64,000 nucleotides of DNA from Thalassia testudinum (Eukaryota; Streptophyta; Magnoliopsida; Alismatales; Hydrocharitaceae), in contig JAZHRO010000024.1 in assembly GCA_037157565.1 (NCBI GenBank), positions 15,134,501-15,198,500 on the forward strand. Direction: 5' to 3'. A model generated the notes under the pieces. That model was not told the DNA's origin. It saw only the letters and a list, made by a program, of their open reading frames with translations, and did not search any database. Positions within the stretch are counted from its first letter, which is position 1. The number at the start of each line of letters is the position of its first letter. Of this stretch, positions 4,482 through 62,611 are shown piece after piece. The translations under genes were made by a program, and so were the position numbers.

Positions 4482-5444
4482 TGATGTAGACACATTTAAT
4501 TAGGTTAAAATGCGTATTTATGCATGTTCCTAGGCTTAGATTTGTATTTCATATTATAAATATTACATAGCATGCGTCATTATGCATTTAGAATAGTTGT
4601 GTATATTTTAGGTTAATTGCATCCTTTTTATAGTCAGGAGGGAAGGTGATTTATTTCAGGGTCTTGGATGGACAATCTAACCGTACGAATCTGATTAAGA
4701 TGACTATCGGAGTCTAACGCCTCCGAAATCGTTGAGATCGGAATCCCGTAGCACCTTATGCGGTCTGAGGAAGATCAATGGCCAGGGGGCAATGTGTAGG
4801 TTTGGCCCTACTAGGAGGGGTGACGTAATAAATGCGGAATTGAAATATAAATAATCTCACAAATAAGCAATCACACGAGTACACAATTATTTTTAGGTGG
4901 AAACCCAAACCGGGTGAAAACCACCACCTAACCCTCTCGAGTTAGGATTTTCCGATCAACCAAGTTGATCAAAATCCACTAAACCGAATCACTTTAAATG
5001 AGGGTGATTCAACCTCAATACAACCACGCTACTTAGACGAGGGTAGCGTACCTCAACCCCTTCTCTCCACAAGAAGGATTTTGTCTCACGAAGGAGACGG
5101 GAATTCGCAAAGCGAATACCCAACCAAATAACAAAGATAAAAGAAACAACAAGTCCTATAGAGCCAACAAAGTAATTATAAACCTATCTTCTATAGGAAT
5201 TAGGAAACTCCCCTTTGCAAGGAGTGCGTCGAGTTGATGACGCGGTTCGTGTGCCACGCGACGGCGCAACTTCGCTCTCGTGAACTACGGCGGGAGAGCG
5301 GGTGCGCAAAGCTTGATGCTCTCAAGAGAATAGAGCTTGAGCTTGGAGAGCAAGAGTTAGCTAGGACACAAGAGAGTGGAACTATGTTGCTTAAGTGTGT
5401 CTTGTGTTTCTCTTGGTGTGTCTTGGTGTGTCAAAGGCTCCCCT

Positions 5445-5453
5445 CTATTTATA
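5445..5453 (-). promoter_or_regulatory. TATA box of solo LTR D1
   Basis: TATAAATAG on the minus strand lies inside the near-palindrome CTCTATTTATAGAG. The GACGTC pair array lies 115-660 bp upstream of it on the same strand, in the U3 position. The D2 counterpart is at 57387-57395. Confidence 0.6.
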
Positions 5454-5566
5454 GAGGCCTTAGGAAGGCTTTGGAAGGCTTAGAAAAGCTTCCATAGCCG
5501 TTGGGAACAAAGCCCAAGAGAATCAGCCCGAAATCAGGAACAATCATTGTTCTGACAGGCTTATCA

Positions 5567-6105
5567 GACGTCTAATTCTAGCATCAGACGTCTGGAAGTT
5601 CACTTTAAGACGTCTGATTTCAAGGTCAGACGTCTGATATTAGGCGGGTCTCTCCCTGACTTGGATCAGATCTAAACAGGGTTTTTGCGCGAGTCCATCA
5701 GACGACATATAGGACGTCTGGCACTATATCTGGACGTCTGGAAACCTACTTTTATTGTGGGAATGGATTTTCCAAACGTTGCAACGGCTAGAAAATCTTT
5801 GAGAAGAGATTTTGGGTCAGCCGAGGCAAAACGGTCAATTATCGGACGTCTGGAAAGGCCTAAGGACGTCTGATAAGGCTCTAACGGTCATAATCTTGAG
5901 TGCCTGCTAAGTTAGCCAACGGTCCACTATCTGGACGTCTGACAAGTCCATCAGACGTCTCCTAAGATGTCTGGTATAAGGTCTGGACGTCTGATTTTAT
6001 CAGACAGAACTAGCTATGCCCAGCCTAATAGATATCAGACGTCTGAAACAACAGTCAGACGTCTTAAAATACTTTATCAGACGTCTGATTTGGGAATTAG
6101 ACGTC
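5567..6105. repeat. Array of eight paired GACGTC palindromes, fixed 20-bp register (D1)
   Basis: GACGTC sites (context CAGACGTCTG) start at 5567/5587, 5609/5629, 5713/5733, 5845/5865, 5934/5954, 5966/5986, 6038/6058 and 6080/6100. Partners are always 20 bp apart, while distances between pairs vary from 12 to 112 bp. The site at 5966 is GATGTC. The 10-bp spacers inside pairs are not conserved. Confidence 0.9.
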
Positions 6106-6814
6106 TGGAAGTGCTGTTTGAACCCTATATTGGTTTTCTAAGTATTCTACAGAAAACCTAAGTATCCTAGGGTTGTGCCGGTGTTCCTACGACTACTGTT
6201 AGGGTTCTTTGAGGCTCTTTAACATAATATTCTAAGGAAATAAAAAGAGCAAGAAAATAAAGACAAGAGATACATGAAAGGATAGAAAAGAATCTATCCT
6301 ATTTTCTTGTCTTCTATCTTCAATCTGTCGCTCCACGCGAACCTCCTCTGTTCTTCATTAAGCTCCTCCAATCCATCCTGGATGCGAGCTCGAAAACACG
6401 TCCACATTTGCAATTGACCTGAAATCTAGGACTCAAATTGCAAATGTTAAATAACCCGTGTTTTGTTATCATCAAAACAAATGATCGTGGTGCTCTAGCA
6501 CCAACACAATGCAAAATCCTTAAGGGATTTGGATGAAAAATCCGACCATACGGATGGATCTAGGGCGACGATCGCAGTCCGGCAACGCGGAAATCACCTC
6601 GATTCAAACACCATGGCACCCTCTGCAAAAGAAAGAAGATGGATGGCCTAAATAGCACGACGTCGTGCCTCTAGGCCACCCAACACCAGCTAGCAGCAAC
6701 CACCCACGCCCTTCATCATCTGCACTCTTGAATCCTAGCTGTTGGATCATCATCCAACGGGTAAGAAGCCTCCACACCGAGCTCCAGAAACTTCTCGCGA
6801 CAAACCCTTAGGTG

Positions 6815-7130: not shown

Positions 7131-7800
7131 GACCTACCCCCCTCCAATCTTCACCATCTCTTCCTTTCTTCTCCTCACCACCTCCAAGGCTCTAGAGAGA
7201 GCTTGTCCCAAGCTTGGGATGCTCCTCTAGAGTAGAATCAAGAATTTTCCTTCCTCTCATCCCAATTTGTGGAGCATCCTGCGGCCGTCTTCTTACCTAC
7301 TTCGGGAAGTAGATCCTCGCCGTGACGCCGTCCTCCAGCTTCGTACTCGTTCATCTCGCTCCTCACCACCTTCCTCCAGGGGACGTCAGAGCGAATCGTC
7401 CTCCAAGCAACCGTCGAGGGGGATTTCTCTCACTTATCTCTATCTTTATTGCTTTCATAGTATAGTTTTCCCACTTTCCTAGTTGTAATAAACATTTGAT
7501 TATAAAAATACATGATTGTTTCTCTCTCTCTTCCTATCTCTCTCTTTCTATTTTACAAGTAGATTAGCTAGAATTCGTCGACCTGATCTTTTGCCCTATT
7601 AAAATACTAAAAAAATAACAAACATAAAAACAACAAAAACAAATAAAAAGCGAAACGCGGATTTTTCAAACCAAACGTTCGCCTCCTCGTGTTTGACCTA
7701 GGACTCACCTTTGGAGTTTCAGTTAAAAATTGTATTTGATAACGTGTTTTGCGAACTACGACGATGGGTTCTCGAAACCCTGATTTTTCTTCATCGAAAC

Positions 7801-8469
7801 CCGTTCATCAGGCCATCGGGACTGATTGGAGCGCCCCCACTCTTGCTGGACTTTCCGTCCTCCCTCCGTACCTCTTCCACATCTTTGGGCTCGACATGCA
7901 AAGCTTCTAGCAGCCTGTAGTGGTCAGACACGGTGGGCGAGGTGGCGGCAGCCATAAAGGTCGTTCTTGTGGTCATACTCCTCTAATAATCGTGTGCTAT
8001 GGCAAGTGGTTCCTCTGTTTCATGCAAAGCCTCAACGTAGCTTGCTCGGAGCATGGGGCGGCATCGAGCGTGCGGCGACGTGCTCCGGTGGTGGTGCGCG
8101 ATGGCTTTGGCTATAGTCGGTCTGCACGCAACGATGTTGGCCATCAGTGGTGGCTCCGGTCGCACTCGGTCGACGCCCAGCGGCTCTAGGTGGCAATGGC
8201 CTTGGAGTTTGTCTCGTTTGGCTATTTGCAGTGTTTTGGTCTGTTGTTTGTTAGATTGGTCCTTTCTTTTTCTTTCTTTTTAGTGGTGTTTCTATTTTGT
8301 TGGGATCCACGTGTGACCCCTCGCTATTATGACCGAGATCGATTTTGACCTTTTGGTCAAGCTATTCGATTTCATCGGTGCATTTCTTCGAGATTTGTCT
8401 CGTTGGTGCTTTGTCGTTCCTACGAGCGTGAAGTCATCCTCCTTCGGGAGGTCGTCTAGTTCCCGATCT
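7801..8469. other. Junction between convergent repeats E1 and E2; no gene recognised
   Basis: Moderately GC-rich DNA has several short overlapping frames on both strands, none with a recognisable domain. A frame from ATG 7764 reads about 48 codons (MGSRNPDFSSSKPVHQ...) and may be the start of internal sequence of the E element. A GACCTTTTGGTC palindrome lies near 8347. Confidence 0.3.
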
Positions 8470-9407
8470 ACATTGTTGGACGTACGAATTGCTACGCTAA
8501 CGTGTTTGCTTTTAAAACCTTGTCGTTGTAGCTTGAAAGCGAAGAATTCGTATTCAACAAATAAAATTTATACCGAAATTGAAATTCCAGGTCGAACACA
8601 GGGGGCTACATTGATCTATATTCGCAATTATATTTTTTTTAGAATTTTTTTTGAAAAGTGAGGCGATGTAATTACAATGAAGCTATCAGACTAAAGGGAA
8701 GAGAGATAGAAAGAGAGAAAGAGAGAGAGAGAGAGAAAACATGCATTTAATATTTCAAAATGTTCATACAATCAAACCAAATAAGAATTACACTAGAAAG
8801 TGGAAAATCAGCTACACTAGAAAGCATGAAAATTCTACACTAGAAAGCTGTAAAGAAGAATGGGAGGGAGAAGTTATCCTCCTCAACGATTGCTTGGAGG
8901 ACAAGTCAGACGGGACGACGCCTGGACGAAAGAGGACGGAGCAGGACGAAGGAGGACGGAGCAGAAGAACGGGAACGGGGCAGCACGTCGTCGTCGTCGC
9001 GGGATCCACTTCCAAAGGGGGACGAAAATTTGGACTTTATCTCGTGAGGAGCATCCTGGGTGTGGGACAAGCTTCTCTTGAGCTTTGGAGAGGTAGAGAA
9101 GAGAAGGAAGGGATGAGAATTTCGTGTGGAGGGGGTCTCCTTTTATAGTTGCAAGGAGTGGGGGCAAATTGGTCATTACATCTTTAAAACATTAAATAAG
9201 GGGTCTTTAGCGACGGATAAAACCATCGCTAAAGCCCAATCGTGGGCATAGTGGGCGCTACCCGCGCGCGCCCGCTCGTCTGCTCGCGCCTAACGCTTGC
9301 CGCACGTCCAGATGATTTCAGCCGTCCGATCGCGAGATTGGACGGCTTAAATCGCGCCTTCGCCCGCCCTTGTTCGATGGCACGTCATCGCCTCACGTGA
9401 AATAGCG
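8470..9407 (-). repeat. Repeat E2, distal part (minus strand), left of solo LTR C
   Basis: Matches E1 in inverted orientation: TATA box CTATAAAAG on the minus strand at 9140-9148, AGCTTGTCCCACAC, a GA/TC run (8700-8737 on plus) and a TTCGACCTGG segment near 8590. The other half resumes at 22067 beyond solo LTR C. Its minus-strand promoter region contains a hairpin built on TTTAGCGACGG...CCATCGCTAAAG (9205-9233). Confidence 0.55.
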
Positions 9408-10766
9408 TGTAACGACCCGGTTCCCGAGTCCCTACGAGACACGAGAACCGGACCGACTCGACTAATCCCAAGACCTAGTCGTCCAACGAGGAAGTAACCA
9501 AAAGATAGTAAAATAAACCACATTCAGCATGAATATAACTAACAGTAAGAAAGTACAGCAGTAAGGAAAGAAACTACTACAGTAGGTACCACCACAACAG
9601 TAAAACAGCATTTATCATATAACAAGAACTGCAGGTAAAGAAGGTACAGCGGAAACAAAAACTACTCACTAGAACAGAAACAAAAGGGGTACAAAAGGCT
9701 GTGGTAACTCTACTGGACCCTACTCGGCCCAGCGTCCTCTGCAGCCGCCGGCCCTGGCTGCTCAACACCTGGTCCTGAAAAAGGTAACGAGTGTAACACG
9801 TCAGCAAAACGCTGAGTAGAATGGCAAACTAACTAAAGGCAACAGTAGAGTGTACAGTAGCTGTTATGTTCTATTACTTCCTTTATTCACATCTTTCAAT
9901 TTTTCTCACTATTTCATTTATTTCCCAGATCCTTTACTTGATCTCGAATGTCCTCGTGGGAACGATCTTGATTGCAGTCTTTTCCAAAAGTAGAAGTAGC
10001 ACGTGGTGCTCTCCTGGCCGGGAGAGTCCCCCGTGGTGATCCTACCCTCAGTCAACCACCCCAAGGTCACTGACAGACGTAACGGTGACTACGGCACGCG
10101 CGATAAACGCACAGGTAGCTAGCCCGCACTAGCACGCGGTCAGTCGTTTCCGTTAACGGGTGCGCCCAAAGCACAGCACGGAACCAGGGCAGAGCCCTCT
10201 CAGTAACAGGGGTCCAACCCCTCCACGGTAACCAAACCGGGGCCTTGCCCCTCCACAGTCCGCGCACCCTCGCCTGACTACCCTGGTTTGCCCTAGTGGG
10301 CCTAACAAGTCGGTGAAGGAGGCTAGCAGAACCCCAGGGCCCGTGGGGTAGCTAGTACTCTCCTAACACTACTAGCTCTCCTCGGTACTACGTACACGAG
10401 GGCCAACAAGTCGGTACAGAGCGGCCAATCCTAACCCCGGGTCCCTGGGGCGGCTGGCCCCACTCTGCACTAAACAGGTACAGGTACTTCCCTTGGTACT
10501 GCGTACCCAAGAGACAGTACAAACTACATCTCAGTTCCATTCCTTTTTCTTTCCAGGAGTTCCACTCCTAATTCCCCGTAGGGTTCCAGCTCTTTATCTC
10601 AGAACATCATATGTTTCACTTTCCAGATTCACGTTCTCAAAATCCATGATCTCAAACATGTTTCTTTATTCATAACAGGCAGCTGTTAATTCAAATTACA
10701 GGCAGCTTTATATTCCTTTCCATTTTTCCAAGACTGCAGTATTATACATTCCACTAGTTTTTCCAT

Positions 10767-10892
10767 CCTAAGATTCATGCCACATCCTAGGATCTAGCAT
10801 ACAACTAATTTTCCAGCCCTAGGATTCATGCATCACCTAGGAGCTATCATTCCATACATTTCTCATTCCTAGGATTCATGCAATGTCCTAGA
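10767..10892. repeat. Three pairs of CCTAGG-type palindromes in LTR C
   Basis: Sites start at 10767/10786 (19 bp), 10818/10836 (18 bp) and 10868/10887 (19 bp), each with the spacer core ATTCATGC. These are the inverted counterparts of the units at 1760-1888. They show the pairing is kept across diverged copies. Confidence 0.75.
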
Positions 10893-11408
10893 TTCTAGTT
10901 ATGGTTCCATACTTTAACAGATTTTAAAAATAACTTAAGCCACTCTACCAGGTACAACGGGAGTAATGGGGGCGTGATCGGGAATCCCGCGTGCCTCCGC
11001 GACTCTCAAGACTGCAACCGAACGAGGTCCTATCACAAGGATCAAACACAAGGAGTGTCTCAAAACAGTGTATAGCTACTGTAGACGGGTAGAGGAATTA
11101 ATTCTGCAACGAACGCAACTCGAATCGCGGAAAACGGAGCCCGAACGGACCCTAAACGGGTCGAAAAAGACGATACTGTGCAAAATCAGACGTCTGGAAC
11201 TCCTTCCAGACGTCTTAAAAAGTGGATCAGAGAATTACCTGTTCAGCGTGGTTTCCCAGACGTCCAGAAGTCTGTGGGGACGTCTGCCTAGATCCCAGAC
11301 GTCCGATGGTCCCTCCGGACGTCTGGAGGTCACTCCCGCCGTCTGGTACAACTTCCAGACGTCTGATTCGCAAAGGATGGCGAATCAGCGAACCTGCGCA
11401 CAGCCAAC

Positions 11409-14154
11409 TGATGAGAACCTCATCATAAGCCATAACTAGCTCATTTTGACCCAATACAAAGGATAAAAGCTCCTACATAACTCAAGGAAAGGCTTAACTC
11501 AGAGAATTCTGAGTTTAAGGAGAAAACAAGTCATAAGGGGTAAAAATGCAATTTTACCAGTATAATCTACATACAGGGTAATTCAGGGTCCAAACATAGG
11601 TCAAAGCAACCTAATAAGAATAAAAGTAGGATGAGATGATCTGACAAGGGCTACAGCAATTCCAAGGAACTAAGTGATAATCTGTAACCCTAAAACAACC
11701 CACTTCAATTCACGAGGTTCGAGGCAAAGTAAAAATATAATAAACCCTCTAAAATTCATAGAAAAATAATCTCTAGGGTTTAGAACCTTCAATTTGGCCT
11801 TCAGAACCCATTTTGACCTACATTGAGAACCATGCCCAATTAATAACTTAATTTGGGTTTTTGCATAAATTGACCGGTCAAACAAGGTTTAATATAGAAA
11901 TGAAATTCACCATCAGATTCCTTAGGTCCTAATTAATCATGTATAAAAACTTGAGCCTAAGAAGAAACCTCCTTGACCGACTTTACACTTTGGTCCTCAT
12001 ATATTTACTTTTTGGCCCTCAACTTTTGAACCGTCGCATTTTGGCCCCTAACTCTCCTTCGTTCTTTGCATTCAGGTCCCCACTGCAAAACCGGCCAGCA
12101 CCATGCTCCGGCGACCTTGCGCGGAGCATGGCGCCGCGCAGGGTGAGGGGGAAAGCCTGGCAAGTAAACCAGGGGTGCCCTGCGTTGTCAGCCGTCGCAG
12201 GGACACCCCCCTGGTCGCTGTAGCCCACCATACCGGCCGTGCGAACGCACGGACGGTATGGGTTTTCGTCTCCGGCCATCCTCCGGCAAGGGAGACACGT
12301 CGTCTCCCTCCGCCTCCCTCCCTGTTTTGATCCCTATAAATACCCCCCGTTGCTCCACCGACCGGGGCAGCTCGGATCTGACGGAGAAAACCCCCAACGT
12401 TCCTCTCTTCTCTCTCCGGCAGATGCTCACCAGCTCCGGCGGTTCCTCCCCCTCCTCCTCTTCGCTCTGCCGCAATACCAGCAGCAGAGACTTCCTCCCC
12501 TGCTCTTCCCGCGCCACGCCGCACCCAGCTGGCGCCTCTCCGGCTCTCTGCTCGCCGCCGCCCCTTTCCCTGAGCATCTTCTTCTCCGGCGACACTCGAT
12601 ACGACTGTCGCCCTACTGCTCCCCCTTCGTCCCTGCAAGTAAGTTAGAACTACTTCCCTTCCTCTCCTTTTTCTTTCCCCGGTTTCAATTTGTTCAATTA
12701 AGCCCTCGACCGACCCTGACCATCGTCACCCCCTTCGTCTCCGGCCACCCTCCGGCGAGATGTTCCCATCGCTCCACAGCCTCACACACCTCGCCGACCC
12801 TCACCGAACCTCCGCCTCATCACACTGAGCACCCCCCACCCCTCCACTGCCACTCCACACCTCCGTAACGCTCCCCCGAACAAACCCATTCCTCCGGTTG
12901 CAGTCCAACCTAGGGCTGCCGCCAGACACCACCTTGCGGCTTGCCGCGCAGCTCCTCACCTTCGCCTAGCCACGGCGAAGGTTCCCCAGTGGTTTGATCA
13001 GGCCGAGAGGCCATATTCGTGTCCGACAGGTTTTGAGGTTCGACCGCCATTAACGCACATTGAAGCAGCTTCTCCCGCGCTCCAGGCTTGAGGACTCCAG
13101 GTCTCCAGCTGCTGCGGATTACGGGGAGTCTTGCGAAGGCACCCAGCCAGCAACCTACGCAAATCGAAGCCGCAGCTGCAGAAGCTAGGCCGCGGTCTCC
13201 CAGCAGGCGCACGCGAGGAGAGGTCTGCGTTTAGTCCCACATCGGTAAGCCTCACAACCTTTCCACTGTTTAAATTGATTTTGTGCACTAGCCTTACTGC
13301 CTCAGCACACGGGGTGAGGTCCCCTTCACCCGCCCGGTTACCCGGTCTCGTTCGCGCTCACGCCCCGCGGACCTGACCCGACCCGACTTAGACTGACCTG
13401 CACTCCTCGCCCACCACGCACGCCGGTGGGCCTGGACCCGGGCGTGACCCGAACCCGATTACCCGGCAGCTCTGGGAGAGCTTTCCCAAGAGTGGTTTCA
13501 GAGAGAGAGAGACGCGGGGGGAGAGGGTAGAGTAGGTTTTGTCCTCTGACGTAAGCTCTGAAGTGTGCAGGCACAGGTGAAGAAGAAGAACCGCGGAAGA
13601 AGAAGGAAGCTGAGGGAGACACTGTAGCAACAGGCAGTTTAAGTCGTCTGATTTGGAAATCAGACGACGTCCTGAAGGGAAAAGAAGAAAGAAGGAGGGG
13701 CGACGTCCTGACTGGAAAAAGAAAAGAAGAAAGAAGGAGATCTGAAGAACAACAGAAGAAGGCGAGGCAGAGGAGAACATAAAAGAACAAGGGAAGAACT
13801 GAAAGAAGAAAAACAAAGAAGAAAGAAGAAGATCTGAAGAAAGACAGAAGAAAAAAAGAAGGAAGAGCATCACCACTGCAGAAGAAGAACATCACCTCTG
13901 CAGACAAAGGAGAAGAAGATCTGAGACGAGGAGAAAACAAAGAGAAAAGAAGACAACAAATTCTTTCTCTCTCTCTTTCTTTATTTTTTGTAAAAGAAAC
14001 ATGTATATCTCTAGAATACAACTTGCTCCCTGAGTTCGACCTCGGGAACTCTTTTATTTTCCGAGTAAAAAAAATTTATATTTGAAATGTTGGCAATAAC
14101 TGGCTATACTACAACGCTATAACAATAAAACCCGGTTGCCTACGAAGCGTTTCA
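11409..14154 (+). repeat. 5' LTR of element B
   Basis: Runs from TGATGAGAACCTC to GAAGCGTTTCA. In order it holds an AT-rich U3, a GC-rich segment with a TATA-like CTATAAATACC near 12336, a USE/TATA module (13234-13275), a hairpin of GGTGAGG with CTTCACC (13313-13330), a purine-rich GAAGAA tract (13560-13960) and a degenerate palindrome pair (GTCGTC 13643, GACGAC 13663). The LTR start is shared with elements F and G. Confidence 0.92.
13234..13275 (+). promoter_or_regulatory. snRNA-type promoter module (USE plus TATA at Pol III spacing), 5' LTR of B
   Basis: GTCCCACATCG (13234-13244) exactly matches the plant snRNA upstream sequence element RTCCCACATCG. TTTAAAT follows at 13269-13275 after 24 nt, the spacing known for Pol III-type plant snRNA genes (Pol II types have about 33-34). 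A start near 13300 would precede a GGTGAGG/CTTCACC hairpin, and the first TTTT is at 13537-13540, giving a predicted RNA of about 240 nt. Whether it is transcribed is unknown. Confidence 0.5.
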
Positions 14155-18634: not shown

Positions 18635-21382
18635 TGATGAGAACCTCATCATGAGCCATAACTAGCTCATTTTGACCCAATACAAAGGATAAAAGCTCCT
18701 ACATAACTCAAGGAAAGGCTTAACTCAGAGAATTCTGAGTTTAAGGAGAAAACAAGTCATAAGGGGTAAAAATGCAATTTTACCAGTATAATCTGCATAC
18801 AGGGTAATTCAGGGTCCAAACATAGGTCAAAGCAACCTAATAAGAATAAAAGTGGGATGAGATGATCTGACAAGGGCTACAGCAATTCCAAGGAACTAAG
18901 TGATAATCTGTAACCCTAAAACAACCCACTTCAATTCACGAGGTTCGAGGCAAAGTAACAATATAATAAACCCTCTAAAATTCATAGAAAAATAATCTCT
19001 AGGGTTTAGAACCTTCAATTTGGCCTTCAGAACCCATTTTGACCTACATTGAGAACCATGCCCAATTAATAACTTAATTTGAGTTTTTGCATAAATTGAC
19101 CGATCAAACAAGGTTTAATATAGAAATGAAATTCACCATCAGATTCCTTAGGTCCTAATTAATCATGTATAAAAACTTGAGCCTAAGAAGAAACCTCCTT
19201 GACCGACTTTACACTTTGGTCCTCATATATTTACTTTTTGGCCCTCAACTTTTGAACCGTCGCATTTTGGCCCCTAACTCTCCTTCGTTCTTTGCATTCA
19301 GGTCCCCCCTGCAAAACCGGCCAGCACCATGCTCCGGCGACCTTGCGCGGAGCATGGCGCCGCGCAGGGTGAGGGGGAAAGCCTGGCAAGTAAACCAGGG
19401 GTGCCCTGCGTTGTCAGCCGTCGCAGGGACACCCCCCTGGTCGCTGTAGCCCACCATACCGGCCGTGCGAACGCACGGACGGTATGGGTTTTCGTCTCCG
19501 GCCATCCTCCGGCAAGGGAGACACGTCGTCTCCCTCCGCCTCCCTCCCTGTTTTGATCCCTATAAATACCCCCCGTTGCTCCACCGACCGGGGCAGCTCG
19601 GATCTGACGGAGAAAACCCCCAACTTTCCTCTCTTCTCTCTCCGGCAGACGCTCACCAGCTCCGGCGGTTCCTCCCCCTCCTCCTCTTCGCTCTGCCGCA
19701 ATACCAGCAGCAGAGACTTCCTCCCCTGCTCTTCCCGCGCCACGCCGCACCCAGCTGGCGCCTCTCCGGCTCTCTGCTCGCCGCCGCCCCTTTCCCTGAG
19801 CATCTTCTTCTCCGGCGACACTCGATACGACTGTCGCCCTACTGCTCCCCCTTCGTCCCTGCAAGTAAGTTAGAACTACTTCCCTTCCTCTCCTTTTTCT
19901 TTCCCCGGTTTCAATTTGTTCAATTAAGCCCTCGACCGACCCTGACCATCGTCACCCCCTTCGTCTCCGGCCACCCTCCGGCGAGATGTTCCCATCGCTC
20001 CACAGCCTCACACACCTCGCCGACCCTCACCGAACCTCTGCCTCATCACACTGAGCACCCCCCACCCCTCCACTGCCACTCCACACCTCCGTAACGCTCC
20101 CCCGAACAAACCCATTCCTCCGGTTGCAGTCCAACCTAGGGCTGCCGCCAGACACCACCTTGCGGCTTGCCGCGCAGCTCCTCACCTTCGCCGTGCCACG
20201 GCGAAGGTTCCCCAGTGGTTTGATCAGGCCGAGAGGCCATATTCGTGTCCGACAGGTTTTGAGGTTCGACCGCCATTAACGCACATTGAAGCAGCTTCTC
20301 CCGCGCTCCAGGCTTGAGGACTCCAGGTCTCCAGCTGCTGCGGATTACGGGGAGTCTTGCGAAGGCACCCAGCCAGCAACCTACGCAAATCGAAGCCGCA
20401 GCTGCAGAAGCTAGGCCGCGGTCTCCCAGCAGGCGCACGCGAGGAGAGGTCTGCGTTTAGTCCCACATCGGTAAGCCTCACAACCTTTCCACTGTTTAAA
20501 TTGATTTTGTGCACTAGCCTTACTGCCTCAGCACACGGGGTGAGGTCCCCTTCACCCGCCCGGTTACCCGATCTCGTCCGCGCTCACGCCCCGCGGACCT
20601 GACCCGACCCGACTTAGACTGACCTGCACTCCTCGCCCACCACGCACGCCGGTGGGCCTGGACCCGGGCGTGACCCGAACCCGATTACCCGGCAGCTCTG
20701 GGAGAGCTTTCCCAAGAGTGGTTTCAGAGAGAGAGAGAGACGTGGGGGGAGAGGGTAGAGTAGGTTTTGTCCTCTGACGTAAGCTCTGAAGTGTGCAGGC
20801 ACAGGTGAAGAAGAAGAACCGCGGAAGAAGAAGGAAGCTGAGGGAGACACTGTAGCAACAGGCAGTTTAAGTCGTCTGATTTGGAAATCAGACGACGTCC
20901 TGAAGGGAAAAGAAGAAAGAAGGAGGGGCGACGTCCTGACTGGAAAAAGAAAAGAAGAAAGAAGGAGATCTGAAGAACAACAGAAGAAGGCGAGGTAGAG
21001 GAGAACACAAAAGAACAAGGGAAGAACTGAAAGAAGAAAAACAAAGAAGAAAGAAGAAGATCTGAAGAAAGACAGAAGAAAAAAAGAAGGAAGAGCATCA
21101 CCACTGCAGAAGAAGAACATCACCTCTGCAGACAAAGGAGAAGAAGATCTGAGACGAGGAGAAAACAAAGAGAAAAGAAGACAACAAATTCTTTCTCTCT
21201 CTCTTTCTTTATTTTTTGTAAAAGAAACATGTATATCTCTAGAATACAACTTGCTCCCTGAGTTCGACCTCGGGAACTCTTTTATTTTCCGAGTAAAAAA
21301 AATTTATATTTGAAATGTTGGCAATAACTGGCTATACTACAACGCTATAACAATAAAACCCGGTTGCCTACGAAGCGTTTCA
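18635..21382 (+). repeat. 3' LTR of element B
   Basis: Nearly identical to the 5' LTR, at an offset of about 7226 bp. It ends GCGTTTCA at 21382, followed by the duplication CCAAC. It carries the same purine-rich tract and the same degenerate palindrome pair (near 20869/20889). Confidence 0.92.
20460..20501 (+). promoter_or_regulatory. USE/TATA module, 3' LTR of B
   Basis: GTCCCACATCG (20460-20470) and TTTAAAT (20495-20501) with a 24-nt gap, identical to the 5' LTR copy. Confidence 0.5.
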
Positions 21383-22066
21383 CCAACCCCCTCCCTTAGT
21401 ACGGTCAGTCGACAAGAAGGAAGAAGGCGGAAACTCACCTTTCAGACGTCTGTATGATCTTACAGACGTCGACCTTGCCGTCTGGCTATCAATCCAGACG
21501 TCTGATTCTTGAAATTTTTCCAGAATCAGGACCCTGCTCGGCCTCCGCTCACGACGCCGCCCGCGTCGCACCTCGCGCTCCTGCTGCTCAGACCGCAGCA
21601 GGTCCCTCTCCGCGTCGCTCCGCGCCCCCTGCGCCCTCCGCCAGCCGGCCAAGCCGCTCCGGCGAGCTCGCCCTCACGGCAGAGCTCCGCCCTCGCACGC
21701 CGCACCTCCGCGCTCACTGCGGCCGCCGCTGCCACCCTCGCGTCCGCTCGCTCTCGCGCACAGGAAGGAGAAGAAGAAGGAGACGGTGGAGACGGGAGGG
21801 GAGGCGCGCCCCTTTTAACGCCGCGCGGAGAGGAGAGAGGAGGTGGCAGGCCGCCTGCAGCCGCAGAGAGAAAAAGGGGGAATATGCGGTCTGCGCGCTC
21901 AGGCGCGCAGGCGACTCGCGTGTGTCGAAAATAACGGATTTCCAGACGTCTTGAAACTATCCCAGACGTCTTATCAGACGTCTGGTTGTGATCCCAGACG
22001 TCTTGTCCGACGTCTGAGCCACCTCCCAGACGTCTTAAAATACGTCTGGGGCACACATTCGTTACA

Positions 22067-30874: not shown

Positions 30875-33590
30875 TGTTCGCGACGCTTTTGTGCGGTTTG
30901 TTAAAAGATAATATCGCGTTGTAGTATACCCGACAAAGCCTTCAAACAAATAGAGAATTTTATTACTCGAAAATCGGAGCATCCGAGGTCGAATACAGGG
31001 AGCAAATGAAATTTACTACTAATCAAAATGTAATTGAACACTCTAATTTACTCAAAATTTTAATTCAAATATGAATGTATGCGATTAAAAGTAATTAGGA
31101 CAAAAAATATGAAATTGGACGTCTGATCTGGTGATCAGACGTCTTAAAAGTATTTTCCCCTTTTCCTTCTTCTGATCTTGCTTTCTTTCTTCTTTCTCTT
31201 CTTTTCTTGCGAAGGCTTCTTCTTCCTGCCTTTGTATCTTTTCTCTTGTTTCTTCTCCTACCTTGCCTTCCTTCTTTCTTCTTCTTCTTCTGATCTTTGC
31301 TGTCTTCACTTGACCTCTCTTTCGTTCTCTGCCTTGCTTCTGCCTCTTCCCTGGTCTCCTTCGCTCAGTTTCTTCTTTTGCTTCTTCTCTTCTCCTTGCA
31401 ACTAAGTCTCTCCACGCTCAATCTGCCTGCACAGGAGCAAAACCTATCCTTTTCCCTCTACCCACGTGTCTCTCTCTCTCAGCAATTCACTCAGGGATGC
31501 TCTCCCAGAGCCACACGGATAATCGGGTCGGATCGTACCCAGGACCAGGCGCACCTGCAGGTGGTGTGATGCGCGAGGAGTGCTGAGGTTTAGGTCGGGT
31601 CGGATCCCGCCAGATCCGCGAGATCAAGCCGCGAACGAGGCGAGTGTGAGGGCAGGTGAGGGACCTCACCCCTGTGCTTACGAAGGCGTTAAGGTAATAT
31701 CACAAATTCAATTTATGGCGCAGTGGCGCCTTGTCTCTCCACGATGTGGGACTAAAGCCTCTGCCCTGATTTCGCGCGCGCCCGCAGACTTTGCGTGTCA
31801 TCCCCACAGCTGCTGGCTCTGCTTGCGCTCCATGCTGGACCAGGGCACTTCGCGACACTTGCACGACTACGCAGCACCTGCAGCCTGGGAACCCTGGCGC
31901 CTGGAGCTGCTACGGAGCTTCTTCAACTGTCGTCCATGGCGGAAGGAGCGTCGACACTGTCAGACACAAAACGAGCCTCTCGGCCCAATCAGACCAGCTA
32001 GAGACCTTCGTCGTGGCACGGCGAAAGGGGGTGGACGGTGCTGCAGGCCGTGGGATGGCCTAGGCGTGCGTGCCTAGGTCAACCTGTGGCCGAAGGTGTG
32101 GGGTTGGTCAGGGGGTTATTGTGGAGGTCTGGAGTGGTAGTGGAGGGGTGGAATGAGTTCCTGGTGGTGAGGCGGAGCTCACGAGAGGGTTGGCGAGCAG
32201 TGTGGAGGGGCGGAGTGGTGTGGGTGGCTCGCCGGAGGGCGGTCGGAGGCGAGGACGATGAAGGTGGTTAGGCACTGTCGGAGGGTAATTGGATAAAATA
32301 GCAGGGGGAGAAAAGAGAGGGGACTGTGGAGAAGGTATTTGGCCTAACTACAGGGATGAAGGGGGACGGAGAGGCAAACAGCAGTACCTGCTGTCGCCGG
32401 AGAAGATACTGCCCAGTGGGGGAGAACGGCGGCGACGACGGGGCTGAGGCGGCGTGCGCGGGTATTGCACGACGTGGAGGAGAATCAGGAAGATAACCCT
32501 GCCACTGGTTTTGTGGCAGAGCGAAGAGGGAGGGGAGGGGGGCTCGCCGGAGCTTGCTGGGAATTTTGGCCGGGCAGGAGGAGATGAATTGGAGGTGGAA
32601 ACTCGGCCAAATCAAGCTAAAGATGAGCGGCCGGAGGTGTAGTCTCTTTTATAGGAACTGGGTCGGTTGTTCAGGGCGTGGAAGGCACGCAATCGTTTGA
32701 GGTCGGTCGCCGGAGATGGAAAGAGTTTAGATACCCAAATCCCTCATGCGCTCGCACGAGAGATTGGGTTCACACCAGGGATCAAGATTGGCCTCAGATG
32801 GAAGGGAATTCCTCAGAGAATCTCCCTTCCATTTCTGGGAGGGGATCTCTGAGGAATCAGAGAGGATTCCCTCTCAAATCCTCGCCGGAGCAGGATTCTG
32901 CCCCAATAATGGCGGCAGGACCTGATTGCAAAGGTGGCGAGGAAGTTAGGGAGCTTTCTGTTATGCTTTTCAAAAGATAGGGACCCAACTGTGATTTGGG
33001 TGTACTAAATTGCAGAGTAGGTCAAGATGACCTCCCCTTAGGTCCAAATTTTGGTAAAAATCTAATTTTGACCTAAGGAATCCAATGGTGAAGTTGGATT
33101 TTAGGTTTGACCTCGTTTGACTGGACATTTTGTGTAAAAATCCAAATTAGGTTAATTGATGAACTTGGACCCTAATCTAGGTCAAACTGGGTTCCAAAGG
33201 TCAAATTAAGTACTCTAAACCCTAGGGGATATTTTTCCATGATTTTTAGAGGGTTTAATTGATTTTTATCCTGACCGGAACCTTGTTGAATTAAGCAGGT
33301 CTGTTTTAGGGTTACCACATGTCATTTACTTCCTATATTGCACATGAACCCATTTCTGATCGACTCAACCCACTTTTTATCTCATTTAGACCTTTTGACC
33401 TGTGTTTTGCCTCTGAGAAATCCCATTTATGTACTGCAATGGTAAAATTACAGTTTTAACCTTTAATTCATGTTTTCTTCTCAGAGCACTTATTCCTTCA
33501 TTTAGGCCTTTTTCTAGGTTATGCAGGAGCTTTTATCTTCTTTATTGGGTCAAAATGAGCTAGTTATGGCTCATGATGAGGCTCTCATCA
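30875..33590 (-). repeat. 3' LTR of element F
   Basis: Minus-strand start TGATGAGAGCC at 33590, end CGCGAACA at 30875. Contains the USE/TATA module (31711-31752), a perfect GGTGAGG/CCTCACC hairpin (31655-31670), a TTCTTC-rich plus strand (31150-31400, purine-rich sense strand) and one GACGTC pair (31118/31138, 20 bp) whose spacer extends the dyad. Confidence 0.92.
31711..31752 (-). promoter_or_regulatory. USE/TATA module, 3' LTR of F
   Basis: On the minus strand GTCCCACATCG (31752-31742) is followed after 24 nt by CATAAAT (31717-31711). The first TTTT downstream on that strand is at 31442-31439, giving a predicted RNA of about 245-250 nt if started about 30 nt after the TATA box. Confidence 0.5.
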
Positions 33591-38025: not shown

Positions 38026-40739
38026 TGTTCGCGACGCTTTTGTGCGATTTGTTAAAAGATAATATCGTGTTGTAGTATAGCCGACAAAGCGCTCAAACAA
38101 ATAGAGAATTTTATTACTCGAAAATCGGAGCATCCGAGGTCGAACACAGGGAGCAAATGGAATTTACTACTAATCAAAATGTAATTAACACTCTAATTTA
38201 CTCAAAATGTTAATTCAAATATGAATGTATGCGATTAAAAGTAATTAGGACAAAAAATATGAAATTGGACGTCTGATCTGGTGATCAGACGTCTTAAAAG
38301 TATTTTCCCCTTTTCCTTCTTCTGATCTTGCTTTCTTTCTTCTTTCTCTTCTTTTCTTGCAAAGGCTTCTTCTTCCTGCCTTTGTATCTTTACTCTTGTT
38401 TCTTCTCCTGCCTTGCCTTCCTTTTTTCTTCTTCTTCTTCTGATCTTTGTTGTCTTCACTTGACCTCTCTTTCGTTCTCTGCCTTGCTTCTGCCTCTTCC
38501 CTGGTCTCCTTCGCTCAGTTTCTTCTTCTGCTTCTTCTCTTCTCCTTACGGCTAAGTCTCTCCACGCTCAGTCTGCCTGCACAGGAGAAAAACCTATCCT
38601 TTTCCCTCTACCCGCGTGTCTCTCTCTCTCAGCAATTCACTCAGGGACGCTCTCCCAGAGCCACACAGATAATCGGGTCGGATCGTACCTGGGACCAGGT
38701 GCACCTGCAGGTGGTGTGATGCGTGAGGAGTACTGAGGTTTAGGTCAGGTCGGATCCCACCAGATCCGCGAGATCAAGCCGAGGACGAGGCGGGTGTGAG
38801 GGCAGGTGAGGGACCTCACCCCTGTGCTTACGGAGGCATTAAGGTAATATCACAAATTCAATTTATGGCGCAGCGGCGCCTCGTCTCTCCACGATGTGGG
38901 ACTAAAGCCTCTGCCCTGATTTCGCGCGCGCCCGCAGACTTTGCGTGTCATCCCCACAGCTGCTGGCTTTGCTTGCGCTCCTTGCTGGACCAGGGCACTT
39001 CGCGACACTCGCACGACTACGCAGCACCTGCAGCCTGGGAACCCTGGTGCCTGGAGCTGCTACGGAGCTTCTTCAACTGTTGTCCATGGCGGCAAGAGCG
39101 TCGACACTGTCAGACACAAAACGAGCCTCTAGGCCCAATCAGACCAGCTAGAGACCTTCGCCGTGGCACGGCGAAGGCGGTGGACGATGCTGCAGGCCGT
39201 GGGATGGCCTAGGCGTGCGTGCCTAGGTCAACCTGTGGCCGGAGGTGTGGGGTTGGTCGGGGGGTTATTGTTGAGGTCTGGAGTGGCAGTGGAGGGGTGG
39301 AATGAGTTCCTGGTGGTGAGGCGTTGCTCACTAGAGGGTTGGTGAGCCGTGTGAAGGGGCGGAGTGGTGTGGGCGGCTCGCCGGAGGGCGGTCGGAGGCA
39401 AGGACGATGAAGGTGGTTAGGCACTGTCAGAGGGTAATTGGATAAAATAGTAGGGGGAGAAAAGAGAGGGGACTGTGGAGAAGGTATTTGGCCTAACTAC
39501 AGGGATGAAGGGGGACGAAGAGGCGAACAGCAGTACCTGCTGTCGCCAGAGAAGATGCTGCCCAGTGGGGGAGAACGGCGGCAACGACGGGGCTGAGGCG
39601 GCGTGCGCGGGTATTGCACGACGCGAAGGAGAATCAGGAAGATAACTCTGCCACTGGTTTTGTGGTAGAGCGAAGTGGGAGGGGAGGGGGGCTCGCCGGA
39701 GCTTGTTGGGAATTTTGGCCGGGCAGGAGGAGATGAATTGGAGGTGGAAACTTGGCCAAATCAAGCTAAAGATGAGCGGTCGGAGGTGTAGTCTCTTTTA
39801 TAGGCACTGGGCCGGTTATTCAGGGCGTGGAAGGCACGCAATCGTCTGAGGTCGGTCGCCGGAGATGGAAAGAGTTTAGATACCCAAATCCCTCGTGCGC
39901 TCACACGAGAGAGTGGGTTCACACCAGGGATCAAGATTGGCCTCAGATGGAAGGGAATTCCTCAGAGAATCTCCCTTCCATTTCTGGGAGGGGATCTCTG
40001 AGGAATCAGAGAGGATTCCCTCTCAAATCCTCGCCAGAGTAGGATTCTGCCCCAATAATGGCAGCAGGACCTGATTGCAAAGGTGGCGAGGAAGTTAGGG
40101 GGCTTTCTGTTATGCTTTTCAAAAGATAGGGACCCAATTGTGATTTGGGTGTACTAAATTGCAGAGTAGGTCAAGATGACCTCCCCTTAGGTCCAAATTT
40201 TGGTACAAACCTAATTTTGACCTAAGGAATCCATTGGTGAAGTTGGATTTTAGGTTTGACCTCGTTTGACTGGACATTTTGCATAAAAACCTAAATTAGG
40301 TTAATTGATGAACTAGGACCCTAATCTAGGTCAAACTGGGTTCCAAAGGCCAAATTAAGTGTTCTAAACCCTAGGGGATATTTTTCCATGATTTTTAGAG
40401 GGTTTAATTGATTTTTATCCTGACCGGAACCTTATTGAATTAAGCGGGTCTGTTTTAGGATTACCACATGTCATTTACTTCCTAGATTGCACATGAACTC
40501 ATTTCTGATTGTCTCAACCCAATTTTTATCTCATTTAAACCTTTTGACCTGTGTTTTGCCTCTGAGAAATCCTGTTTATGTACTGCAATGGTAAAATTAC
40601 AGTTTTAACCTTTAATTCATGTTTTCTTCTCAGAGCACTTATTTCTTCATTTAGGCCTTCTTCTAGGTTATGTAGGAGCTTTTATCTTCTTTATTGGATC
40701 AAAATGAGCTAGTTATGGCTTATGATGAGGCTCTCATCA
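38026..40739 (-). repeat. 5' LTR of element F
   Basis: Minus-strand start TGATGAGAGCCTCATCATAA at 40739, end CGCGAACA at 38026. Same modules as the 3' LTR, including the GACGTC pair (38268/38288). Confidence 0.92.
38861..38902 (-). promoter_or_regulatory. USE/TATA module, 5' LTR of F
   Basis: GTCCCACATCG on the minus strand (38902-38892), a 24-nt gap, then CATAAAT (38867-38861). Unchanged from the 3' LTR despite LTR divergence elsewhere. Confidence 0.5.
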
Positions 40740-56754: not shown

Positions 56755-58481
56755 TGTAGGAAAATGGAAAACCTATCAGGAGGGGGTGACGTAATAAAAT
56801 GCAGAAATAAAATATAAACAATCTTACAAAAAATCAATCACACAAAGTACACAATAATTTATAGGTGGAAACTCAAACCGGGTGAAAACCACCACCTAAC
56901 TCTCTTGAGTTAGGATTTTCCGATCAACCAAGTTGATCAAATCTACTAACCGAATCACTTAAACGAGGGTGATTCAACCTCAATTACAACCACGCTACTT
57001 TATACGAGAGTAGCGTACCTCAAACCACTTCTCTTCACAAGAAGGATTTTGTCTCACGAAGGAGACGGGAATTCACAAACGAATACCCAACCAAATAACA
57101 AAATAACAAATATCCTATAAAGCCAACAAAGTAATTTTTAACCTAAGCTTCTATAGGAATTAAGATGCTTCCCTTTGCAAGGAGTGCGTCGACGACGCGG
57201 ATGTGTGAACGACGGGGCAACGTCGCTCTCGTGAACTACGGCGGGAGAGCGGATGCGCAAATGCTTGATGCTCTCTAGATGAATAATTAGAGCTTGGAGA
57301 GCAAAAGCTTTTCTTCTTAGGATCAAGAGACACAAAATGATTTGAAAGTGTATTACAAAGTGTGTGTGTGTGTAAGAGGTTCCCCTCTATTTATAGAGGC
57401 CTTAGGAAGGCTTTGGAAGACTTAGGAAAGCTTCCATAGCCGTTGGGTGCAAAGTCCAAGAGAATCAGGCCGAAATTAGGAACAATGATTTCACTGACAG
57501 GCTTATCAGACGTCTGATCCTGGCATTAGACGTCTGGAAGATCACTTTATGACGTCTGAGAACAACATCAGACGTCTGAGAACAACATCAGACGTCTGAT
57601 TTTAGGCGGGTTTCTTCCTGACTTGAATCAGATCTAAACAGAGTTCTAGTGCAAGTCCATCAGACAACATACAGGACGTCTGGCACTATGTCTGGACGTC
57701 TGGAAACCTACTTCTTTGTGGGAATGGATTTCCAAGAGAGTGCAACGGCTAGAAAATCTCTGAGAAGAGATTTTGGGTCAGCCGAGGCAAAACGGTCATT
57801 TATCAGACGTCTGGAAAGGCCTAAGGACGTCTGATAAGGCTCTAACGGTCATATTCTTGAGTGTTTGCTAAGTCAACCAATGGTCCACTAATTAGACGTC
57901 TGGCAAAGTCATCAGACGTCTTCTAAGACGTCTGGTCTAAGGTCTGGACGCCTGATTTCATCAGACAGAGCTAACTAAGTCCAGGCTAAATGTTATCAGA
58001 CGTCTGAATCAACAGTCAGAGACGTCTTAAAACATATTATCAGACGTCTGATTTTGGAGTTAGACGTCTGGAACGGCTGTTTGAACCCTATATTGGTTTT
58101 CTAAGTTCTCTACAGAAAACCTAAGTGTCCTAGGGTTGTGCAGGTGTTCCTAGGACTACTATTAGGGTACTTTGAGGCTCTTTAACATGAATCTAAGTTA
58201 CAAAAATAAAGAGCAACAAAAAAAATGAAAAATACAACGAGTACAAGAGAAGGAAATCTATCATATTCTTCATCTCCTTCCTTCTTCAATATATCTCTCC
58301 TTGCGAATCTCTTCTGTTCTCCATCAAGCTCCTCCAATCCATCATGGATGCGAGCTCGAACTCCGTCTAATCATGTCTCCATTTGCAATTTGCCTGAAAT
58401 CTAAGACTTCAAGTGCAAATGTTAAATGACACGTGTTTTGTTATCATCAAAACAAATGATCGTGGTGCTCTAGCACCAACA
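56755..58481 (-). mobile_element. Solo LTR D2 (Ty1/copia, SIRE/Maximus-like)
   Basis: A 1727-bp second copy of D1 in the same orientation, with the perfect duplication GTTAC (56750-56754 and 58482-58486). Minus-strand TATAAATAG lies at 57395-57387. It keeps the GACGTC pair array with small changes. The two copies diverge clearly, so both are old recombination products of separate insertions. Confidence 0.85.
57509..58068. repeat. Paired GACGTC array in D2
   Basis: Pairs start at 57509/57529, 57551/57571 (plus a third site at 57591), 57675/57695, 57806/57826, 57895/57915, 57927/57947 and 58043/58063, all 20 bp apart. One pair, 57999/58021, is 22 bp apart because GA is duplicated next to the second site. 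The site at 57947 is GACGCC. Confidence 0.9.
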
Positions 58482-59927: not shown

Positions 59928-62611
59928 TGTTCATGGACGTTTCTGTGCGGATTTAAAGGCGTATTACATTGCAGTAGAACCGACAAAACGTTTAAACAAA
60001 TAATTTTATTACTCGAACAACTAGAGTATCCGAGGTCGAACACAGGGAGCAAACTCAGTACTTTGTAAAACCCAAGAATACAACTGTTAAATGCAAATAT
60101 AATTGATTCAAAGAGTTTTTAAGAAAGATGTAAAAAATTAGAATTAGACGTCTGATTTATGTATCAGACGTCTTAAATGTGATCTTTCTTTCTCTTTTTC
60201 TTCTTCTGCTTTGCCTTTCGGATCTCTTTGCAATCTTCCCTTGTCCTTCTTCTTCTTCTCCTGCGAAGACTTCTAACCTTTCTGTTTTCCTCCTTCGCCT
60301 GCGAAGACTTCTTTCTTTCTTCTTCTTCTGTCTTGCTTCTCCTTTCTTCGTTGCCTTCTTCTTCTTCTTTGTCTTGCTTTCTTTTTCTTCTTTGTCTTGC
60401 TTCTCCTTTCTTCTGCAGCGGCCACGTCCTTCTCCTGCAATCAGCCTGCCTGCACAGGGGAACAAAACCTAACCCTTCTCCCTCTACCCGCGCGTGTCTC
60501 TCTCTCAAGCAATTCACTCTAACTGCTCTACCAGAGCCACAGTCTCAATCGGGTCGGATCGTACCCGGGACCAGGCGCACCTGCAGGTGTGTGATGCGCG
60601 AGGAGTGCGTAGGTTTAGGTCGGGTCGGATCCGCCAGGTCCGCGTGGTCAGGCCGCGGACGAGGCGGGTGGGGTCAGTGAGGGACCTCACCCCTGTGTTT
60701 TCGAGGCGATAAGAATAAAGCGTAAAATCAACTTATACGTTACCTGCCGGTTGCAATCCCACGATGTGGGACTATCTGGTCTCGCCTTCACGCGCGCCTG
60801 CAGAAACCTCGTCGTGCGCTTGCCCCGCAGCTGCTGGCTCTGCTAGCGCTCCTCGGCTGGATTCGTTCACCTCGCGACACTTGCATTAGTATGCAGAACC
60901 TGTAGTCTGGAAGACCGGGTGCCTGGAGCTTCGCGGGAGCTTCATCAGAGGTCGTCCATGGCGGCAGCAGCTCGAGTCCTGTCGTACACAAAACGCGCCT
61001 CTCGGCCAAATCAGAATAGATAGAGACCTTCGCCGTGGCACGGCGAAGGCGGTGGGCAGTGCAGCAGGCCGCAGGTCGGCCTAGGCGTGCGTGCCTAGGT
61101 CAACCTGTGGCCGGAGATGGTGGGTTGGTCGGGGGGTGGTTGTGGAGGGCTGGAGTGGCAGTGGGAGGGTGGAGTGTGTTCCTGGAGGTGAGGCGGAGCT
61201 TCCGAGGTGGTTGGCGAGCCGTGTGGAGGGCTGGAGTGGTGTGGGCGGCTCGCCGGAGTGCGGTCGGAGGCGAAGACGATGGAGGTGGTTAGCGTCTGTC
61301 GAGGGTCGATCAAGGGAGATAACAGGGGGAAAAGAGAGAGGAGAGGATGGAGAACGTATCTGGGGTTGTCTGGAGTGAAGGGAGGCAGTGGAGAGGACGG
61401 CTCGTGACTGCCGTCGTCGGGGAAGAAAGACCCTGGGGGAGGAAGCGGCGACGAAGATGAGGTCAGGAGCTTGCGCGCAGGGTACAGCGCGCCGCGGAAG
61501 GAAGAGGCGGAGAGGACTCTGCTGCTGGTATGGCAGCAGAGTGACGAGAAGGAGGGAAAGCGGTCGCCGGAGCTTGTGGGTCGTTTGGCCGGAGATGGGA
61601 GGGAAGAAATTTGGAGGGGATCTCCGTCAAAATCAAGCTTAAGATGAGTGGCCGGGTCCGAGGGGTGTTTTATAGGTGCTGGCCGCTCCTATCAGAGCGT
61701 GAAAGACGCGCAATTAGGTCAGCCGGTTCGCCGGAGTTGGAAGGAAGAAAGATACCCACATCTCTCGTGCGTTCGCACGAGAGATTGGGTTCACACCAGC
61801 GAATTTGATTGGCTTTAGAAGGAAGGGAATTCCTCAGAGAATCTCCCTTCCATTTCTGGGAGAGAATCTCTGAGGAATTAGAGAGCCATCTCTCTCGAAA
61901 CTTCGTCGGAGCTCGGTTCTGCCCTAGCAATGGCGGCAGGACCGGTTTGCAAAGAAGGCGAGGAACCTAGGGGGCTCTCTACAAGGATATTCAAAAGATA
62001 GGGACCTCTTTGTGATTTGGGTGTACTAAATTGCAAAGTAGGTCAAGATGACCCCTCCTTAGGTCCAAATTTTGGTACAAACCTAATTTGGACCTAAGGA
62101 ATCCAATGGAGAAGTTAGATTTCAGGTTTGACCTTGTTTGACTGGATATTTTGCGTAAAAACCCAAATTAGGTTAATTGAAGAGCTATGACCCTAATCTA
62201 GGTCAAACTAGGTTCCAAAGGTCAAATTAAGTGTTCTAAACCCTAGAGTATGTTTTTTCATGATTTGTAGAGGGTTTACTTGCTTTTTGTTCTGACCAAA
62301 ACCTTGTTAATTTAAGCGGGTCTGTTTTAGGGTTACCAAGTGTCTTTTAGTTCTTAGATTGCACATGAACCCATTTCTGCTTGACTCAACCCACTTTTTA
62401 TCTTATTTAGACCATTTGACCCATGTTTTGCCTCTAAGAAATCCTGTTTATCTACTGCAATGGCAAAATTGCAGTTTTAACCTTTATTTCATGTTTTCTT
62501 CTCAGAGCACTTGTTCCTTTAGTTAAGCCTTCTTCTAGGTTATGTAGGAGCTTTTGTCTTCTTTATTAGGTCAAAATGAGCTAGTTATGGCTCATGATGA
62601 GGCTCTCATCA
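59928..62611 (-). mobile_element. Solo LTR G, same family as LTRs of F
   Basis: 2684 bp with the perfect duplication GTATG (59923-59927 and 62612-62616). On the minus strand it starts TGATGAGAGCCTCATCATGA at 62611 and ends CATGAACA at 59928. It aligns with the F LTRs throughout, is more diverged from them than they are from each other, and keeps the USE/TATA module, the hairpin, the purine-rich tract and one GACGTC pair (60147/60167). Confidence 0.9.
60731..60772 (-). promoter_or_regulatory. USE/TATA module, solo LTR G
   Basis: GTCCCACATCG on the minus strand (60772-60762), then TATAAGT (60737-60731) after 24 nt. The hairpin GTGAGG/CCTCAC lies near 60677-60690 and the first TTTT on that strand at 60467-60464, a predicted RNA of about 245 nt. 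Confidence 0.5.

Follow-up and report, generated by a model that had tools for sequence, protein, structure and literature searches.

The question raised by this locus is why short palindromes in a long terminal repeat (LTR) should stand in pairs at a constant distance, and what could hold the two partners in register. The array concerned lies in the window (the whole stretch of 64,000 nucleotides of Thalassia testudinum DNA that was analysed) as follows:

5565..6107, minus strand: U3 array with 16 sites in 8 pairs

As a preliminary description of this DNA had claimed, partners are 20 bp apart from start to start in all 8 pairs and the distances from pair to pair vary, although the interval given there (5567-6105) leaves out the outer bases of the two terminal sites. 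The exact 10-mer CAGACGTCTG is found at only 4 of the 16 sites, and the degenerate ones do keep the register, as had been noted. GACGTC is retained at 15 of the 16, the site at 5964 (GATGTC) being the sole one without it, so that seven pairs are core-exact and the eighth carries one mismatch. When 15 sites were placed at random in the array interval (20,000 trials, distances of 8-60 bp), at most 5 pairs fell at any one distance, against 7 GACGTC pairs at 20 bp in the array. The eight 10-bp spacers are indeed unrelated to one another, with a mean best identity of 3.54 out of 10 compared with 3.41 for shuffled spacers (p 0.30). On the plus strand the transitions among these sites (5565-6107) are one-sided, 11 of A>G or C>T against 1 in the opposite sense; changes of this kind keep G-U pairs only in antisense RNA, and the sites are possibly not independent.

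Clustering by their flanks of 37 arrays taken from genome stretches gave four families (F1-F4) and three single arrays. The array at 5565-6107 belongs to F1, which is represented in the window by:

4820..6506, minus strand: copy A of the F1 LTR, a Sirevirus-type copia LTR that starts at 6506, assigned by identity to other copies, polypurine tract (PPT) and primer-binding site (PBS)
5445..5454, minus strand: TATA box CTATAAATAG of copy A, with the array 111 bp upstream of it
56785..58481, minus strand: F1 LTR copy B, with its array at 57507-58070

Copy A is 83.7% identical to 56786-58481 and 87-90% identical to 8 further copies. The TATA box is present in all 10 F1 copies (the 9 others being those of L004, L005, L013 and L015, two each of L009 and L024, and the one at 57387 of the window), and the array spans 111-653 bp upstream of it. 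According to the Sirevirus rule in PMC2829016, a PPT octamer is located 10 bp upstream of the LTR; in F1 the octamer AGGGGGAG begins exactly 10 bp before the LTR (L009 5633, LTR from 5643; L024 3288-3295 on the minus strand, LTR start 3285), and the F1 linker holds several copies of it (7 in L024, 6 in L009), as in Sireviruses. The full F1 copy in L024 contains a copia gag domain (Retrotran_gag_2, PF14223, E 1.1e-9), present as a fragment and with no pol seen. The PBS of F1, which like the PPT was observed in the full copies of L024 and L009, is presumably of the iMet type. The host of the array, which had been called a copia-like LTR, is thus a Sirevirus-type copia LTR.

In Sirevirus LTRs the TATA box is preceded by palindromic repeated-motif (RM) boxes (Bousios et al. 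2010, PMC2829016), for which that paper could name no binding protein. Since such boxes have already been described, the F1 array is a known Sirevirus feature with a new sequence: both are high-copy palindromes that precede the TATA box and occupy the upstream half of a copia LTR, and F1 has 16 palindromic sites (at least 8 define RM boxes) that begin 399 bp into the LTR and extend to 941 bp, in its upper half. The RM of Usier, GTCGGACGTCCGAC, is likewise centred on GACGTC (PMC2829016). The CGG-CCG core of RM boxes, on the other hand, is replaced here by GACGTC / CGTCTG, and Tnd-1 also has no CGG-CCG (PMC2829016). The same paper calls the RM Sirevirus-specific, on a comparison that comprises Ty1/copia elements only, whereas the unit described here is also found in LTRs of chromodomain gypsy and Tat-like gypsy elements. 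In the parts available of the Sirevirus RM literature, including PMC2829016, no mention was met of a fixed 20-bp pairing or of sharing with gypsy elements, and the literature matches to the exact 10-mer CAGACGTCTG included, by their listed titles, none on plant retrotransposons. The palindromes of maize Sireviruses, which like those of F1 are located in the LTR regulatory region but have a different motif, are able to form hairpins and have been linked to small-RNA targeting (PMC10760457, PMC5311732). Sharing beyond Sireviruses has one precedent, because the maize motif CACCGGACNNNGTCCGGTG has been reported from Helitrons too (PMC10760457).

The preliminary description had suggested that the spacing of GACGTC pairs be counted genome-wide, and these counts bear out the 20-bp rule. 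The window holds 60 GACGTC, which form 24 pairs at a distance of 20 bp and one at 19, with none at 18 or 21; distances of 12 bp (3 pairs) and 22 bp (5 pairs) are also recurrent, and neighbouring pairs too can be 12 or 22 bp apart. In a sample of 17 stretches of the same genome, each of 10 kb and placed at round coordinates, GACGTC occurs 164 times and is the third commonest 6-bp palindrome (6-36 occurrences for each of the other CG-containing ones), and its pairs number 50 at 20 bp, one at 19 and none at 18 or 21. Across the 4.26-Gb assembly, with the reversed pattern as a control, exact AGACGTCT pairs amount to 212,299 at 20 bp (control 6), 825 at 19 bp (control 3) and 896 at 21 bp (control 3), a ratio for which young copies could largely account and which has no calibration by ordinary rates of indels, so that the argument from spacing rests on independent units. 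Allowing up to 2 mismatches, pairs of the 10-mer reach 483,342 (control 186); most of these genome counts are copies of a few ancestral units. Among 100 places listed at 20 bp, the central 8 bases form 12 clusters at up to 2 mismatches and 6 at up to 3. Pairs at 22 bp are also frequent (43,822, control 2), and this frequency arises through amplification of two or three segments alone: the central 10 bases of 50 places listed form 3 clusters at up to 2 mismatches and 2 at up to 3, which match two 22-bp gaps between pairs of F1. Chance is rejected as the source of the 20-bp pairing by the random placement, the 10-kb stretches and the genome counts against their controls. A collection of viral contigs (viral_contigs) contained a single exact AGACGTCT pair at 20 bp, at 6926-6953 of L030 (IMGVR_UViG_3300047160_010522).

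The unit is common to LTRs of Sirevirus copia, chromodomain gypsy and Tat-like gypsy elements, which appears to be new. Its occurrences in gypsy LTRs of the window are listed below, A-type units being those that contain GACGTC:

11187..11365, minus strand: array in an F2 (chromovirus-type Ty3/gypsy) LTR, part downstream of the putative TATA
21443..21504, minus strand: second part of this F2 LTR array, beyond the element at 11409-21382 that splits it
21812..21819, minus strand: putative TATA-like GTTAAAAG of the F2 LTR, in GC-rich surroundings
21943..22048, minus strand: F2 LTR array upstream of the putative TATA, with successive distances of 20-12-20-12-20-12
13641..13670, plus strand: T-type unit GTCGTCTGATTTGGAAATCAGACGAC in the 5' LTR of the nested Tat-like element
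20869..20898, plus strand: T-type unit GTCGTCTGATTTGGAAATCAGACGAC in the 3' LTR of the nested Tat-like element
31116..31145, minus strand: single A-type pair in an F3 (Tat-like) LTR (30882-33590)
38266..38295, minus strand: single A-type pair in the other F3 LTR (38033-40739)
60145..60174, minus strand: single A-type pair in a third, F3-like LTR (59936-62611)

The GC-rich F2 LTR is part of a chromodomain Ty3/gypsy element: between F2-type LTRs of L019 we found RVT_1, RT_RNaseH, Integrase_H2C2 and Chromo (PF00385, 25.7 bits for a cut-off of 25.1), together with rve at 25.5 bits, under its cut-off of 32.6. The Tat-like element at 11409-21382 is inserted in the F2 LTR with a target duplication of CCAAC, and its own LTRs are 99.3% identical. 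Its PBS, TGGCGCCGTTGCCGG at 14159, was seen in this nested element only and not in F3; we take a PBS of the form TGGCGCCGTTGCCGGGGA to be of the Tat/Athila type. The ORFs scanned in the nested element and in F3 gave no Pfam match, and among them is a 545-aa ORF of the nested element (15494-17131). The stretch 30882-40739 is a minus-strand Tat-like element with LTRs 95.8% alike; the DNA of its 554-aa ORF (35203-36867, no Pfam match) resembles that of the ORF of the nested element.

In the nested element the pair reads AAGTCGTCTG-N10-CAGACGACGT, that is, the sites are not palindromes and the pair as a whole is an inverted repeat, and for this reason the halves of the sites were counted separately in the genome. 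Units whose inner halves (CGTCTG...CAGACG) are both preserved while each outer half is broken at the adjoining base number 25,217 (control 8), those with the outer halves intact and both inner ones broken 177 (control 15). A single broken outer half is found in 21,028 and 20,551 units for the two orientations (41,579 together, controls 2 and 4), a single broken inner half in 3,690 and 3,920 (7,610 together, controls 0 and 4). These counts indicate that the constraint falls on an inward inverted repeat whose hexamers are separated by 10 bp, CGTCTG(R)-N8-(Y)CAGACG, a finding that appears to be new. A pair of independent palindromes is accordingly disfavoured, the outer halves being broken far oftener than the inner ones.

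The class of 25,217 seems to be derived from one LTR superfamily: among 50 places listed 46 are of the T-type (T...A), and all 4 of the places inspected are in Tat-like LTRs. There the T-type reads TCGTCTGA-N8-TCAGACGA, with no ACGT in the arms. Five Tat-like copies (L026-L029 and the element of the window) have identical arms and a centre of always 8 bases in aligned pieces that are 67-82% alike; the centres are of four different sequences, those of the window copy and of L029 being alike. The search pattern itself fixed 12 arm bases in the four copies L026-L029, and a looser search yielded two more Tat-like copies with one arm mismatch (L014 4743, L018 2110). An ACGT stands beside the right arm, out of register, in L029 and in the window copy, where a GACGTC starting at 13666 adjoins the right arm of the unit at 13641-13670; it is absent beside the arms in L026-L028. 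In F1 the rule is looser, the inner hexamers being within one mismatch in 5 of the 8 array pairs, while the other three resemble direct repeats of GGACGTCTG or variants of it. Units of unrelated families often have an outer flank CAGACGTCTTAAA(A) in common, with examples in F1, F2 and F3 (6036-6069, 11187-11220 and 31116-31149), and it is possible that this flank extends the half-site as TTAAG-W-CGTCTG.

The preliminary description had supposed that selection acts on the pair and had proposed a search for spacer indels across the family. Ten F1 copies, with two elements contributing two LTRs each, were aligned with MAFFT, and ungapped distances were used for the spacing. The difference per column pair is 0.034 in the cores, 0.055 in the outer site bases, 0.142 in the spacers, 0.103 between pairs and 0.088 in the flanks; CG columns differ by 0.066 in the cores and 0.165 outside the sites. 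Without the copy by which the sites had been defined, the cores remain at 0.037 against 0.100 between pairs (p 0.0001), and the spacers evolve faster than the sequence between pairs (p 0.03). The cores therefore evolve about threefold more slowly than the between-pair sequence while the spacers drift, which appears to be new, and the spacing is 20 bp in 79 of 80 pair-copies, the remaining one, in copy B, being at 22 bp (57999/58021). Slow cores and a spacing so well kept are in line with selection on the pair as one rigid unit. Elsewhere in the array the length does change: one gap measures 112, 111 or 102 bp, and extra units are found in three copies, of 20 bp in copy B (57549-57599) and in L013 and of 52 bp (20-12-20) in L005, so that part of the array growth is due to tandem duplication. 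Simple tandem duplication of a 30-bp unit with conserved spacers, which had been named as an account that would undo the pairing rule, is rejected as a general cause, because the spacers as a set are unrelated; what holds of it are local duplications of 20 bp in some copies.

In 15 array stretches of our choice, successive distances are 20 bp in 55 of 104 cases and 12 bp in 14 of 104. As several of these stretches are homologous, the other distances were tested as unique values, with three above 130 omitted. The 19 values up to 130 gave R 0.49 at a period of 10.5 (p 0.0097), and the 18 values left after dropping an 8-bp value as spurious gave R 0.63 at a best period of 10.1, for which the period was searched (p 0.0004). 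Site distances other than 20 bp are thus phased at about 10 bp, which also appears to be new. This agrees with the earlier proposal that the sites lie on one face of the DNA. The accompanying idea of two independent ACGT palindromes, each bound by a bZIP dimer, is not supported in that form, in view of the frequently broken outer halves and of the T-type arms that lack ACGT. The 12-bp site spacing (21943-22048; 5952-5973) also sets outward-facing halves 10 bp apart.

We consider it probable, from the pattern in the DNA, that several LTR lineages use the pair as a rigid site for docking a protein on the DNA. It would act as one composite site in the U3 enhancer of LTR retrotransposons, in which two inward-facing half-sites of approximately G-W-CGTCTG-R leave exactly 10 bp between their CGTCTG hexamers, and a single sequence-specific protein, as a rigid dimer or as two dimers, would hold both half-sites at once. 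Arrays of units in steps of about 10 bp would tend toward one side of the helix and, upstream of a TATA box, could recruit the transcription machinery. Under the simplest version, Sirevirus copia, chromodomain gypsy and Tat-like gypsy elements would each have come to depend on the same host factor, by convergence rather than by exchange of U3 pieces. A reading at the level of DNA is favoured because of the fixed gap, the drifting spacers, the phasing, the position before the TATA box and the tolerance of A/T mispairs. The looser rule in F1, the origin of the 25,217 class in what seems to be a single superfamily and the location of some F2 arrays downstream of the putative TATA speak against docking. 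The closest analogies in protein binding each fail a defining feature. In as-1/ocs elements, whose core is TGACG, centres are 12 bp apart, compared with 20 here, where ACGT can moreover be missing from the arms. Like our unit they consist of two sites whose spacing matters, and two dimers of TGA bZIP factors occupy them (PMC9360754). The IR7 and IR8 elements of ARF proteins (PMC10690724) likewise consist of inward hexamers held by a dimer, and TGTCTC and CGTCTG share GTCT, but they have TGTCNN with a gap of 7-8 in place of CGTCTG with a gap of 10.

The main alternative is that the pairs fold, in RNA derived from the LTRs, into hairpins with a stem of about 10 bp or more that serve as small-RNA templates or act as RNA. 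Such a stem for each pair had been suggested from the start; it is possible, but we find it rather unlikely, and less likely than a reading in DNA. Folding of 19 pairs, each taken on its better strand, gave -12 kcal/mol or below for 18 and -11.9 for the remaining one, and for 6 of 7 pairs in F2 it is the transcribed strand that folds better; in F1, however, hairpins on the transcribed strand are weak in 3 of 8 pairs (-7.3, -9.7 and -2.5), and this speaks for DNA, as does the lack of excess complementarity in most of the stem. Spacer-end bases covary as complements (93 spacers collapsed to 14 clusters, p 0.004), so that the spacers are not wholly free, whereas within the 10-bp sites real partners show no excess of complementarity over shuffled ones at 9 of 10 stem positions, the tenth giving p 0.002, in a test that took 160 distinct pairs across families and, by pooling these, overstates covariation. 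Small RNAs concentrate on the maize Sirevirus palindromes (PMC10760457, PMC5311732), but a loop does not need a length fixed to the base, a stem requires no single sequence across lineages, and hairpins do not predict the 10-bp phasing between units. The 41,579 units with one broken outer half would be mispaired (T-T or A-A) next to the core, although the inner stem remains. Strict base pairing at the level of the pair, an idea that came from the T-type unit of the window, is weakened by the commonness of mixed A/T units.

Distinctly improbable in our estimate is a classic C-box bZIP pair, a 20-bp cousin of as-1/ocs in which two TGA-like dimers would sit on two ACGT palindromes two turns apart. 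The sites recur at 12 bp, the centre spacing of as-1/ocs. TGA factors can bind GACGTC, the C-box, and tandem sites can take two of their dimers, with a dependence on spacing (PMC9360754). The inner halves are nonetheless the better preserved, the core is AGACGTCT rather than TGACGTCA, and an ACGT or TGACG in each site, found in the A-type, is absent from the T-type arms. It is very unlikely that the protein is encoded by the transposable elements themselves, as an anti-silencing factor of the VANC kind whose target would be shared by non-autonomous families in order to escape silencing. VANC is such an element-encoded factor and its targets look like motif arrays; the motif is abundant in several families and the full F1 copy in L024 retains a gag fragment only, but the units span both copia and gypsy lineages. 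We give least credence of all to the absence of any function, under which one ancestral pair or U3 segment would have multiplied by tandem duplication, exchange and amplification, its spacing simply inherited. The 20-bp duplications (57549-57599; L013) and the amplified segments behind the 22-bp pairs would fit such a history, whereas unrelated spacers, slow cores beside fast spacers of fixed length and the asymmetry between inner and outer halves do not. The odds that we attach to these readings overlap, because the bZIP pair and the element-encoded protein are special forms of DNA binding.

A more tentative extension of the docking reading, which we hold to be somewhat less than evenly probable, is that copia and gypsy elements of one plant genome converged on a single rigid composite element (CGTCTG inverted, with exactly 10 bp between) present in several hundred thousand units, and that one dimeric plant protein could be the common switch for much of the retrotransposon load. 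A unit with a rigid gap, inward orientation, drifting spacers and a presence in three LTR lineages would be a sharp bait, and its gap and inner halves predict which proteins should and should not bind. If one host factor drives several unrelated lineages, this could explain their joint activity and offer a single handle on them; hundreds of thousands of sites could also titrate the factor or rewire its own network.

Some minor features of the F2 LTRs are worth recording. In L019, a stretch at 7409-9210 that a split LTR match marks as a probable insertion lies in the array region of an F2 LTR copy and has a 20-bp pair of its own (8522/8542). Palindromic arrays may be insertion targets, and a weak insertion preference for them is reported in PMC6911290. 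Tandem repeats of 52 and 50 bp with CCTAGG cores are found at 1750-1898 and 10759-10891, two related stretches in opposite orientation, the latter of which is located inside the F2 LTR.
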